The notes beneath the pieces were generated by a model that saw only the letters and a list, made by a program, of their open reading frames with translations, ran no database searches and was not told where the DNA came from. The position numbers were made by a program, and so were the translations under genes. Positions 8,430 to 14,567 of a stretch of 64,000 nucleotides of DNA are shown here, one piece after another (the first letter of the stretch is position 1; each line of letters opens with the position of its first letter). This DNA is from Prolixibacteraceae bacterium (GTDB lineage: Bacteria; Bacteroidota; Bacteroidia; Bacteroidales; Prolixibacteraceae): positions 62,001 to 126,000 of the forward strand of contig JAFLKN010000041.1 in assembly GCA_019163175.1 (NCBI GenBank). Reading direction: 5' to 3'.

Positions 8430-8966
8430 ATGCATTACTCTCGTTTGTTGCTGATATTAAGTTTCTTATTCAGTTTAAGCTGTACTAAAACCAATAGTCA
8501 GATGATTGATAAAACCACCGTAAAAGAACTCGACCTGAACCGATATCTCGGAACCTGGTACGAAATTGCACGTTTTCCTCATTCGTTCGAGAAAAATCTG
8601 GTGGGCGTCACAGCTACTTATAGCTTGCGCGAAGATGGTAAAATAAAGGTGTTGAATCAGGGCTATAAAAATACGCTGGATGGAGAACTTTCGGTGGCAG
8701 AAGGAAAAGCAAAAATTCCGGACAAATCGCAACCCGGAAAACTGAAAGTTTCTTTCTTCTGGATTTTTTATGGCGATTACAATGTGCTGGAACTGGAAGA
8801 GAATTATCAATATGTGATGATCGGAAGTTCGACGCCAAAATATTTCTGGATATTGAGCCGTACACCGCAAATGGATGCAACTACCTATGAGATGTTGCTA
8901 GAAAAAGCCCGGAATCGTGGATATAACCTGAAGAAATTGTATAAAGTTCCACAAAAGCTGAATTAA
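8430..8966 (+). CDS. Lipocalin-family lipoprotein (Blc-like)
   Basis: 178 residues from the ATG at 8430; a TTG six bases upstream is in frame but less likely. The N-terminus MHYSRLLLILSFLFSLSC is a lipoprotein signal with lipidated Cys18. The lipocalin signature follows: NRYLGTWYEIARFPHSFEK with the Gly42-x-Trp44 motif, then the eight-stranded barrel pattern and YFWILSRTP. Blc-type lipocalins are outer-membrane-anchored carriers of fatty acids and lysophospholipids. The stop codon is one base from the next start, so it is the first gene of a unit with the small lipoprotein and the radical SAM enzyme. That tight link is unusual for a lipocalin and suggests a shared envelope role, which is inference. 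Confidence 0.88.
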   Translation: MHYSRLLLILSFLFSLSCTKTNSQMIDKTTVKELDLNRYLGTWYEIARFPHSFEKNLVGVTATYSLREDGKIKVLNQGYKNTLDGELSVAEGKAKIPDKSQPGKLKVSFFWIFYGDYNVLELEENYQYVMIGSSTPKYFWILSRTPQMDATTYEMLLEKARNRGYNLKKLYKVPQKLN

Positions 8967-8967
8967 A

Positions 8968-9333
8968 ATGAAACGAAATTGGACACGAAAACTTATAGGA
9001 GGTTTGAGTTTTACATCTGCGATGTTTGTGTTTCAGGCCTGTTACGGAACACCACAGGATTTTGGACTCGATATTCTGATTGAAGGTCAGGTAAAATCAA
9101 AGGGAACAGGCTTGCCAATAAAGGGAATTAAAGTTTCGGTTGACGAGAACATGCAATACGATTTTACCAATGATGAGGGCAAGTTTTCGTTTTATACCGA
9201 GCCGGGTAATGGCTTGAAAATTAAGTTCGAAGATGTCGATTTTGCTCAATATGGCACTTTTGTGAATAAGGACACCATTCCTGCGATTACTGACAAAAAG
9301 GTTTATTTGAATATTGCACTGGACTCCAAATAG
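8968..9333 (+). CDS. Small lipoprotein associated with a radical SAM enzyme
   Basis: 121 residues. A signal peptide ends at a lipobox-like site with Cys25 in FQACYGTPQD. After the anchor, residues 37-119 look like a small regulatory beta-sandwich of the carboxypeptidase-regulatory type (GTGLPIKGIKVSV, NDEGKFSFYTEPG). The ACYGTP stretch after the signal and the radical SAM gene starting at the next base match what I recall of the Bacteroidota 'rSAM/lipoprotein' pair (TIGR04134-type lipoprotein with TIGR04133-type enzyme). Known of the family: the pairing is conserved and the function is unknown. Inferred: this protein is the substrate or partner of the enzyme. No modified residue can be named; the mature part has no cysteine beyond Cys25. 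Confidence 0.8.
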   Translation: MKRNWTRKLIGGLSFTSAMFVFQACYGTPQDFGLDILIEGQVKSKGTGLPIKGIKVSVDENMQYDFTNDEGKFSFYTEPGNGLKIKFEDVDFAQYGTFVNKDTIPAITDKKVYLNIALDSK

Positions 9334-10410
9334 ATGAATCAAATCATCAGAAAGCATATTTTTCGGCGATTCAAGAAATCAGAAACGAAGATTCATGAAT
9401 TAAATTATCTGTTTTGGGAATGTACAAGCAGGTGTAATTTGAGCTGTTTGCATTGTGGCAGCGATTGTTCGAAAGATAACTCTATCGGCGACATGCCTTT
9501 GGGAGACTTTCTAAAAGCTCTCGATACCATAGAATCCAAATCAGAAAACTTTATTGTTGTCCTTACCGGTGGAGAACCGCTTTTGCGCAATGACATTGAA
9601 ATTTGCGGTCGCGAAATCAGAAGTAGGGGAGTGCGCTGGAGTATGGTAACCAATGGTTATTTGTATAACGAGCAAAAACATATTTCGCTGTTAAATGCTG
9701 GTTTGGGCGCATTAACAATTAGTTTGGACGGATTGGAAAGTACGCATAACTGGCTGCGAAATAAAAAGGATAGTTTTTCTAAAGTCGATCGGGCCATTGA
9801 TTTGGCCACAAGTTCATCGCGGCTGATTTTTGATGTGGTAACCTGTGTAAATAGTCGTAACTGGCACGAACTGCCTGCTTTGTATTCATATTTGATTGAG
9901 AAAAGAGTAAAGGCTTGGCGCTTGTTTACGATTGTTCCGATTGGTAGGGCAAAAGATAATCCGGAGTTGTTCCTGACTGATCTTCAGTATAGAGAAATGA
10001 TGGATTTTATCAGCGAAAAGCGAAAACTGAAGGTAATGGATGTCAAATTTAGTTGCGAAGGCTATGTTGGATCGTACGAATCGAAAGTTCGGGATCAGGC
10101 TTTTTTTTGCAGGGCAGGAATTAATATTGGTTCAATTTTAATTGATGGATCAATATCAGCTTGCCCAAATATTGACAGGAGCTTTGCTCAGGGAAACATT
10201 TATCAGGATAACTTTGCTGACGTATGGGAAACCAAATATCAGGCATTTCGTAATCGGAGTTGGACTAAACGCGGACAATGCTCAGAATGTGCTGATTATA
10301 ACGATTGTCAGGGAAATGGATTGCATAACTGGCACGAAAACAAAGAAAATGTATTAATTTGCCACAAGGGAAAAATCGAACGAGCAACAAAATCTAATTC
10401 ATATCTTTGA
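9334..10410 (+). CDS. Radical SAM/SPASM enzyme of the lipoprotein-linked type
   Basis: 358 residues, starting immediately after the lipoprotein stop codon with no spacer. The radical SAM cluster motif is Cys34-x3-Cys38-x2-Cys41, flanked by further cysteines at 30 and 45. The SAM-binding motif VVLTGGEPL follows at 76-84. A C-terminal SPASM-like region supplies Cys259, 277, 316, 319, 325 and 343 for auxiliary iron-sulfur clusters, with the typical GNIYQDNFADVWE stretch between. SPASM enzymes generally modify peptides or proteins. The enzyme has no signal peptide and should act in the cytoplasm, so any action on the lipoprotein would have to precede its export. The overall fold is certain; substrate is inferred from the gene pair. 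Confidence 0.88.
   Translation: MNQIIRKHIFRRFKKSETKIHELNYLFWECTSRCNLSCLHCGSDCSKDNSIGDMPLGDFLKALDTIESKSENFIVVLTGGEPLLRNDIEICGREIRSRGVRWSMVTNGYLYNEQKHISLLNAGLGALTISLDGLESTHNWLRNKKDSFSKVDRAIDLATSSSRLIFDVVTCVNSRNWHELPALYSYLIEKRVKAWRLFTIVPIGRAKDNPELFLTDLQYREMMDFISEKRKLKVMDVKFSCEGYVGSYESKVRDQAFFCRAGINIGSILIDGSISACPNIDRSFAQGNIYQDNFADVWETKYQAFRNRSWTKRGQCSECADYNDCQGNGLHNWHENKENVLICHKGKIERATKSNSYL
10402..10409 (+). promoter_or_regulatory. Candidate -7 element for the NfeD-type protease gene
   Basis: TATCTTTG matches TAnnTTTG and overlaps the stop codon of the radical SAM gene, 52 bp before the NfeD start. It would let the protease gene be transcribed on its own. No well-spaced -33 TTG was seen. Confidence 0.4.
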
Positions 10411-12785: not shown

Positions 12786-14567
12786 ATGATACTAAAAATT
12801 GACCAACCCCAGTTTTTTTACGATTTGTTTTATCAGTTATCCTTATTGATTGTAGTTCTGATCTTTTTAATTGAAGGCACACGTAGAAATTTGCCCTGGA
12901 TATCTTTATTGCTTGTTATCGTTACAACACGGTTTTTCGTTATTGCCGGTTCAAAACTGGCCGGTATCAATTCCGATGATCTCAACTTTTTCATTCAACA
13001 CTTTAGTTTTCCTCCGGAACATACTAAGAACATGGCCGGCGCTTTGCTTTTTGGCCTCATCGGATTGGGACTTGCAAAACTTGCCTTACGAATAAAGTAC
13101 CCAATATTAGATGTTTTTGCGATTGCAGCACCCTTTGGAATGGCCATTCAGCGAATCGGTTGTTTGTCTGCGGGTTGCTGTTTTGGCATCGAGACTCATT
13201 CTCCATTAGGCATTCAATACGGATCAAATACGCCTGCCTTTTTTCATCAGCTTTATGCTGGCCGCATCGACTTTGCCGATGAGCTTTCGCAACATATCCA
13301 CCCGGTTCCGCTTTACTTTATTTTAAGCAGCTTGTTGATAGGAATAATCTTGCTTAAGTTCAGAAATTACTGGAAAAGACCTGGAAATCTGGCCTTGTCA
13401 GGCTTGGTTTTAATTTTGCTAAGCTGGTTTAGTATCGAATTTTTTAGAGATCCATTTTCGAACGGAACTTTTTTGGGTGCTCAGTTTCTAGGTATTAAAC
13501 GTATTCAGATTATTTACCTGATTTTCATTCCGATATTGATTTCTGTCATTCTCTACCGCGAAAAACATAGCGTTCAGAAAGTTTATCAAGTTCAGGAAAA
13601 TCATCCCATTCATAATTCTCTTTATTTGGCGTTACTGGCATCATTAATTTTCATCACACGTGGTTGGTTTACTTTCATTGAATTTACTGTTCTTTTATTC
13701 GTGCTTATTCCTGTGTCTATTGGCGTTATAATCCAAATAATCAAACACTTTTATTCGCCACGAGTAAGGGTGAGTGTTGCATTTATTACACTTCTTTCTT
13801 TCATTTTAATGAGTCAAACCCTGCCTGAAAATGAAAAGAAGGTTTACCAATCGATAAAGTTTGGATATTCCGGAGGAAACTTCGATACTTACCATGATAT
13901 CGGAACAGGCCAGGGTTGCGACAGGGTGAGTCAATCGCAGGACTTTCATCAAAAATTTAAAATGATGGGAATTGGCTATTCAAAAACCACAGAGCAAAAC
14001 AATAAAGTTCTGGAATATGGATTGAACGGGTATTTTGGTTCTCATCACGAACTTGCCAGGACAAATAGAACAGAGATTGATGAGGTAATATTGGGGTTAA
14101 ATCCATTTGTGAAATATGATATGACATGGGTTGGAGTCGGTGGTGGATTGCATATTGGTGATTTGAATTATTCGCCTGCAAACTGGGTCGAGCAAAAACA
14201 ATCGAAATTTCCAACTACAGGAACTAAAAAGAGTCCGGTCTGGCCCCAGTTTTATTTCCGCATAGGTCCAAAGCACATTGCTTATTTCAGTTATAAATAT
14301 GCCGATCAGTTTCCATCACCTTTTCCCGGAATGTTTCAAAATATGGAAATTGGCTCTGGCTTTGGTCAAAAGACCGGGTTAGATCTTCGTTTCGGAACCT
14401 TTTTGCATGGGAGTTACCTCGCCGCTACTATTCCGATAAAAAACAGATTTTATATTGAGCCACTCTACGAATGGATAAGTACTTCAGATACAGAATTCTC
14501 AAATCCAAATCAAATTTCACTCGGATTGAAATACCGTTTTGGGCATAAAACAACTGTAGCGAAGTAG
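12786..14567 (+). CDS. Lgt-like membrane protein with a long beta-rich C-terminal extension
   Basis: 593 residues with three visible parts. Residues 1-260 have about seven helices and resemble prolipoprotein diacylglyceryl transferase (Lgt): QRIGCLSAGCCFG at 122-134 aligns with the Lgt GRxGNFxNGE block, HPVPLY at 172-177 with HPSQLYE, and FFRDP at 219-223 with the FFREPD block. The conserved Asn of the first block and the Glu of HPSQLYE are not kept. Residues 277-345 add two or three helices. Residues 350-593 are soluble-looking, rich in alternating aromatic/polar strands, ending ISLGLKYRFG, as in outer-membrane barrel proteins. Function is unknown: it is probably not the housekeeping Lgt. 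The gene stands alone, divergent from deoC. Confidence 0.7.
   Translation: MILKIDQPQFFYDLFYQLSLLIVVLIFLIEGTRRNLPWISLLLVIVTTRFFVIAGSKLAGINSDDLNFFIQHFSFPPEHTKNMAGALLFGLIGLGLAKLALRIKYPILDVFAIAAPFGMAIQRIGCLSAGCCFGIETHSPLGIQYGSNTPAFFHQLYAGRIDFADELSQHIHPVPLYFILSSLLIGIILLKFRNYWKRPGNLALSGLVLILLSWFSIEFFRDPFSNGTFLGAQFLGIKRIQIIYLIFIPILISVILYREKHSVQKVYQVQENHPIHNSLYLALLASLIFITRGWFTFIEFTVLLFVLIPVSIGVIIQIIKHFYSPRVRVSVAFITLLSFILMSQTLPENEKKVYQSIKFGYSGGNFDTYHDIGTGQGCDRVSQSQDFHQKFKMMGIGYSKTTEQNNKVLEYGLNGYFGSHHELARTNRTEIDEVILGLNPFVKYDMTWVGVGGGLHIGDLNYSPANWVEQKQSKFPTTGTKKSPVWPQFYFRIGPKHIAYFSYKYADQFPSPFPGMFQNMEIGSGFGQKTGLDLRFGTFLHGSYLAATIPIKNRFYIEPLYEWISTSDTEFSNPNQISLGLKYRFGHKTTVAK

Follow-up and report, generated by a model that had tools for sequence, protein, structure and literature searches.

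The gene pair and its families

Two adjacent forward-strand genes at positions 8968-10410 of the window (the whole stretch of 64,000 nucleotides that was analysed) encode a lipoprotein of 121 residues (8968-9333, +) and a radical SAM/SPASM enzyme of 358 residues (9334-10410, +), with no spacing between them: the TAG stop codon of the first (9331-9333) is followed immediately by the ATG of the second at 9334. An earlier note on this DNA had described the lipoprotein, its Cys25 and the zero spacing, all of which are borne out by the coordinates and the translation, but had begun the unit at 8430; positions 8430-8966 are a separate gene upstream of the pair, with an ATG at 8430, that encodes a lipocalin of the Blc type. 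The lipoprotein begins with MKRNWTRKLIGGLSFTSAMFVFQAC25-YGTP. Its signal peptide (residues 1-24; 8968-9039, +) ends in FQA ahead of the lipobox cysteine, and VFQA-C25 matches a lipobox pattern of bacterial lipoproteins like that of PS51257. Cys25 (9040-9042, +), the single cysteine of the whole protein, is the predicted lipid-anchor residue and also the X of an XYG motif, because Tyr26-Gly27-Thr28-Pro29 (YGTP; 9043-9054, +), the predicted splice site, comes straight after it, a motif to which the earlier note did not call attention. The body of this putative substrate has a weak TTR/CarboxypepD_reg-like match that falls under the Pfam cut-offs.

The enzyme, a predicted splicease, matches PF04055 with 63.5 bits and PF13186 with 33.7 bits (cut-off 21.5). 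Its radical SAM cluster motif CxxxCxxC (C34, C38, C41), followed by GS, is encoded at 9433-9456 (+), and its SPASM domain region (10108-10362, +) contains six conserved cysteines (C259, C277, C316, C319, C325 and C343), as had been read previously. A seventh C-terminal cysteine, C241, lies outside these six, is invariant in alignments of 20 and of 37 rows, and shares with G243 the stretch SCEGYVGSYE (10051-10080, +), the GY part of which is common to the splicease-like clade described below. The proposed resemblance of the pair to the NCBIfam families TIGR04133 and TIGR04134 (rSAM_w_lipo and lipo_with_rSAM, 'hypoth_equivalog') holds for the enzyme, which a profile search makes a member of TIGR04133 (469.6 bits against a curated cut-off of 425, residues 5-348), but formally not for the lipoprotein, which scores 26.6 bits (E 5.1e-6) against TIGR04134, below the curated cut-off of 39.8. 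The gene order, with the lipoprotein first, and the TTR-like lipoprotein agree with these families. A second and more typical pair, on another contig of the same genome, consists of an enzyme with 573 bits to TIGR04133 and a lipoprotein that passes TIGR04134 with 117.5 bits. Identity between the two pairs is 53% for the enzymes and 36% for the lipoproteins, which have no longer stretches of identical residues in common than YGTP and GIKV. In the window the Tyr-Gly comes directly after the lipobox cysteine, and in the second pair the Tyr is nine residues past the Cys.

Clustering of the ORFs of at least 100 residues within 5 kb of the enzyme at 221 loci gave as recurrent families the relatives of the lipoprotein (166 of the 221 loci), ABC ATPases (25), an antisense frame (13) and sigma-factor-like proteins (11). 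The co-occurrence is strong, and, with the TIGR04133 score of 469.6, it makes the window lipoprotein and enzyme a real pair rather than a chance adjacency. Neither a PlpY-like partner nor a conserved protease was seen among these ORFs. The lipocalin, whose family occurs within 5 kb at five loci (the window, L156, L164, L168 and L238), and NfeD, which occurs at three (the window, L156 and L164), are rejected as parts of the system.

An AlphaFold model of an in-frame read-through of both window genes has a confident enzyme, but pLDDT stays under 50 in the signal peptide and in Tyr26-Pro29; in a second fusion, with a lipopeptide of 61 residues, the enzyme is also confident and the pLDDT of the motif is at or near 50 or below. 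The top fold matches of the enzyme are anSME, SkfB and SuiB, and the epimerase EpeE is also among the matches. By sequence, the best solved relative of the enzyme is BlsE (E 3.6e-14), and no solved structure is usefully related to the lipoprotein (best E 0.79).

With a threshold of E 1e-60, TIGR04133 has hits in 97 of the 393 genomes sampled from the window's order (87 of them over the cut-off), in 29 of 140 genomes of its family, and in 6 of 395 drawn from its class. TIGR04134 is over the cut-off in 58 of the 393 genomes of the order. TIGR04133 accompanies it in 55 of these, and the three that lack the enzyme (G612, G689 and G751) all belong to one family (f91). The best 80 of 180 named relatives are mostly from Bacteroidales MAGs and include others from Fibrobacter, a Spirochaetaceae, a Neomarinimicrobiota and a MAG labelled Bacillales. 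Outside the Bacteroidota, plasmid pTS1 of Treponema saccharophilum (L186) carries a TIGR04133/TIGR04134 pair with SCYGMP directly beside the gene of an Mpi-family recombinase, which suggests horizontal transfer. Tandem cassettes with two enzymes in a row occur at L112 and L120, where the partner of the upstream enzyme has KYGDI instead of YGxP.

The YGxP motif beside the enzyme and elsewhere

The motif was counted in a sample of 224 distinct TIGR04133-like enzymes (profile score at least 190) from 221 loci, using the ORFs within 700 nt of the 217 enzymes that have at least 400 nt of upstream sequence and leaving out the other seven. An ORF with YGxP on the same strand is present upstream of 182 of the 217 enzymes, downstream of 21, and on either side of 194. 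The corresponding controls are 14 of 217 on the opposite strand, 4 of 139 at 2.5 kb upstream, 8 of 148 at 2.5 kb downstream, and 13 of 2346 other ORFs of 60-250 residues. Among the 23 of 217 enzymes without a YGxP neighbour, some have Tyr-Gly without Pro beside them (L117, L124, L133, L242, L244, L249 and L311), and no candidate motif ORF was seen near others. The 224 motif ORFs, some of which are chance frames (e.g. L018, L265 and one L275 row), contain 257 copies of the motif, up to three per ORF, and the Tyr is most often preceded by Glu (74), Cys (68), Met (38) or Lys (25). A lipobox-like match is found in 191 of these 224 ORFs, and in 63 the lipobox-like Cys is directly before the Tyr, as in the window; the distance from this Cys to the motif is 5-14 or 18-68 residues in other substrates. 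The window enzyme very probably acts on the lipoprotein, whose CYGTP provides the X-Tyr-Gly site expected of a splicease substrate.

At the 169 loci with an adjacent YGxP ORF, the partner is TTR-like in 132 cases and of other kinds in 37; the latter are lipopeptides of 51-90 residues, coiled-coil-like proteins with a pair of VYGSP-type sites, and proteins that have KYGxP in a C-terminal tail. On a tree of 95 rows (all 37 non-TTR partners and 58 of the 132 TTR-like ones), at least 14 changes of scaffold are required, six of which are forced by starred branches; correction of three doubtful non-TTR rows (L239, L287 and L310, of which two were reset to TTR and one was dropped) brings the number to 13. 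The motif thus outlives the rest of the protein across scaffolds, as would be expected of a reaction site. The short substrates, compared by eye, have little in common beyond a signal peptide and YG(x)P. In the window-type group of 39 members, mean identity is 52% in the 22 residues before the Cys versus 37% in the body, and the signal peptide exceeds the body in identity in 681 of 729 pairs with enzymes less than 90% identical, QA being fixed by the selection; as a pattern of sequence conservation, this fits a role of the signal peptide as leader.

Away from the enzyme, 31 TIGR04134-like genes in 29 loci were examined that had been chosen as not beside one, including L230, which does adjoin the enzyme of G630 and is TIGR04134-like with no Tyr-Gly. 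YGxP is present in 10 of the 20 genes from genomes with TIGR04133 (the NYGYP of L227 probably by chance) and in 2 of the 11 from genomes without it (L212 and L221). G612 retains CYGSP and G414 retains CYGTP, on a contig that ends about 600 nt past the gene; the homologues in the enzyme-less genomes G689 and G751 have lost the Tyr. Retention of the motif may thus depend in part on the presence of the enzyme, a pattern that is suggestive only, since several of the weak TIGR04134-like matches are unrelated TTR-like proteins.

Loci L215-L220 encode longer secreted proteins (frames of 262-311 residues) away from the enzyme, in each of which an AxA-like signal cleavage site precedes QYG; YGxP is present in three of the six. 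Their genomes have TIGR04133, and these proteins are possible substrates in trans. A similar protein (L211) is found in a genome without TIGR04133.

Relationship to the PlpX spliceases

The PlpX splicease is described as acting on XYG to excise tyramine and leave an alpha-ketoamide (PMC10533398; PMC11002830; PMC10373908), with PIRPLYGLPI as a working tag and a mass loss at Tyr of 135.0757 Da (C8H9NO) in the ketoamide product (PMC10533398); 27 other characterised and 939 predicted splicease systems are credited to Scott 2022 (cited in PMC10533398). Tetrazines serve in PMC10533398 as reagents for aminopyruvate sites derived from Gly. On a Nostoc plasmid, an enzyme of the PlpX family TIGR04103 (853 bits) starts 77 nt after a Nif11 precursor with the C-terminus ALYGLPPELF, and a small gene is present downstream at the locus. 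Against TIGR04103, which we take to be IPR026482, the window enzyme scores 117 bits, far below the cut-off of 725, and is not a member. Its scores against NirJ2 (129) and AhbD (123) are slightly above the 117 of TIGR04103, and the Nostoc enzyme likewise scores slightly higher against the AhbD profile (154 bits) than against TIGR04133 (152); profile scores by themselves do not decide kinship to the spliceases.

In trees that sampled no AhbD, NirJ2 or PlpX itself, TIGR04133 groups with the PlpX family: its members are monophyletic (100/100), and together with TIGR04103, TIGR03913 and enzymes related to these they are separated from the outgroups NirJ, MftC, TIGR04053 and TIGR04347 (94/91). In a second tree, built without four long-branch outgroup rows and three TIGR04133 rows that were divergent, and with TIGR04133 thinned to 24 rows, the joint TIGR04133/splicease-like group is split from the 14 outgroup rows with 100/99. 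Residues S43, W195 and G243, which are three of seven columns picked for the contrast between spliceases and outgroups, occur in every one of the 14 rows of the splicease-like clade and in 93% or more of the core TIGR04133 rows, versus 27%, 20% and 7%, respectively, of the 15 outgroup rows. A small precursor-like ORF with XYG was seen by eye near the enzyme at 8 of the 14 splicease-like loci (L172, L174, L176, L184, L187, L188, L189 and L191), and no convincing one in the flanking DNA examined at the other six; a DNA-pattern search of the genome contigs for the PlpA2 core gave no matches.

The window system thus resembles that of the PlpX spliceases in its radical SAM/SPASM enzyme, in its XYG (often XYGxP) site, of which a precursor may have several, in the residues in common and in the grouping in trees, but differs in that a signal peptide replaces the Nif11/NHLP leader, the product is a membrane lipoprotein, no PlpY-like gene was seen in the neighbourhoods surveyed, the score is far under the TIGR04103 cut-off, and the enzyme has a longer N-terminus and further invariant cysteines (C30, C45 and C241). 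TIGR03913, the GDL motif peptide maturase family, belongs to the same larger clade as TIGR04133 but has a different peptide partner (DUF1843 peptides in L188 and L189); PYG or LYG is found near the start of a small neighbouring peptide at L172, in one of three peptides at L188 and in one of two at L189, and TIGR03913 may be another group of spliceases.

Other splicease-like loci have distinctive surroundings. In a genome of the window's order (L176), the precursor-like ORF downstream of the enzyme contains six KYGYP repeats. A plasmid of Agathobacter rectalis (L187) has an unannotated ORF of 35 residues ending in GPVMYGTGVRM just upstream of the enzyme, followed after the enzyme by the gene of an MFS transporter. 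On a plasmid of Tropicibacter oceani (L191), the gene of the enzyme has as neighbours those of an M23 peptidase and of a protein with a trypsin-like peptidase domain, and an ORF downstream has LYG.

The predicted reaction and its alternatives

The conservation of X-Tyr-Gly-x-Pro, together with the grouping of the enzyme with a family that excises tyramine, favours one specific reaction over the list of chemistries (C-C, epimerisation or Tyr/Lys) that the earlier note had left open. We infer that the window enzyme performs splicing, and the two genes are probably a self-contained lipoprotein splicease cassette that, in the window type, would place a ketoamide on the anchor cysteine. The enzyme would bind the unexported prolipoprotein in the cytosol via the conserved signal peptide, which would function as a leader of the RiPP type, and would excise tyramine at Cys25-Tyr26-Gly27, such that most of the Tyr is cut out, the chain is rejoined and a ketoamide is left. 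That the enzyme acts ahead of export is something we infer, as was done previously. The spliced protein would then take the normal secretion route of lipoproteins: export by Sec, lipidation on the same Cys25 and cleavage on the N-terminal side of this residue. Cys25 would be no bystander but the X residue of the reaction. The earlier judgement that a sactionine is unlikely holds, the anchor being the only cysteine of the window lipoprotein, and sactionine/ranthionine chemistry (the sactipeptide/ranthipeptide class) is rejected because the mature core has no donor cysteine besides the anchor.

In the predicted product, a ketoamide at the membrane anchor is followed by Gly-Thr-Pro and the TTR-like domain, and one might speculate that this ketoamide captures proteases, or some other nucleophile, covalently at the cell surface. 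Protease inhibition is a plausible role by analogy with the products of spliceotide systems, which are reported to inhibit proteases (PMC11117315). Tentatively, the window protein may represent a class of lipoproteins of the outer membrane whose anchor, here Cys25, becomes a radical-spliced alpha-keto-beta-amino acid and is then lipidated, and whose signal peptide doubles as a RiPP leader; the membrane would thereby carry a tethered, reactive electrophile. We know of no report of splicing with Cys as X.

The same Tyr of YGxP might undergo another reaction (cross-linking of its side chain to a neighbour, chemistry at its C-beta, or cleavage that ends the chain), which we consider unlikely; that Tyr and Gly are the conserved residues would suit such a reaction, and PqqE is a SPASM enzyme that acts on Tyr in a different way. 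MftC, also a SPASM enzyme, is likewise described as acting on Tyr by a different reaction (PMC8326336), and the NirJ2 and AhbD scores are as high as that of TIGR04103. On the other hand, the enzyme groups with TIGR04103 and not with MftC or NirJ, the small likeness among the short substrates leaves few partners for a cross-link, and no fixed partner was seen by eye in substrates down to 51 residues.

A reading in which YGxP is only a docking tag, with the true modification, such as epimerisation, elsewhere in the lipoprotein, would accord with the EpeE fold match and with the habit of RiPP enzymes of keeping recognition and reaction sites apart, but is quite improbable when about 34-37 of 169 loci have kept YGxP in a substrate that is otherwise of a different kind, and when an ORF may have as many as three copies, as reaction sites would. 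Lipoprotein sorting signals lie just past the anchor Cys, at +2 to +5, which is where the window-type motif is found, and two enzyme-less genomes (L212 and L221) keep the motif; nevertheless, it is very improbable that YGxP is a sorting or export signal and the enzyme unrelated to the lipoprotein, given that the motif is further from the lipobox-like Cys in other substrates, follows a non-lipoprotein signal as QYG in L215-L220, and is present in the Nif11 precursor of the related Nostoc enzyme.

The splicease reaction itself is already known. NCBIfam names TIGR04133 and TIGR04134 and gives no reaction for them, and a literature search by titles, beginnings of abstracts and term counts found no paper in which splicing is connected with TIGR04133, TIGR04134 or YGxP lipoproteins; the main survey of spliceases, Scott 2022 (Chem), may already cover TIGR04133, as its title mentions 'peptides and proteins'. 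The splicing of a lipoprotein would give an unexplained enzyme family, which reaches beyond the window's order to Spirochaetota and Fibrobacter, a testable job, with a single mass shift as the test. If TIGR04133 is a family of spliceases, then beta-amino-acid backbones would be expected in lipoproteins of Bacteroidota, including gut and rumen species; the products could be protease inhibitors at the surface, and a splicease that accepts Cys would broaden the choice of sites for protein labelling.

In the window, 2.4 kb downstream of the pair, a gene at 12786-14567 (+) encodes a protein of 593 residues in which a long C-terminal extension follows an Lgt-like domain (PF01790, 45 bits). One ordinary Lgt (242.6 bits) is encoded elsewhere in the genome, and an additional lipoprotein diacylglyceryl transferase in the vicinity of an unusual lipoprotein would be noteworthy.
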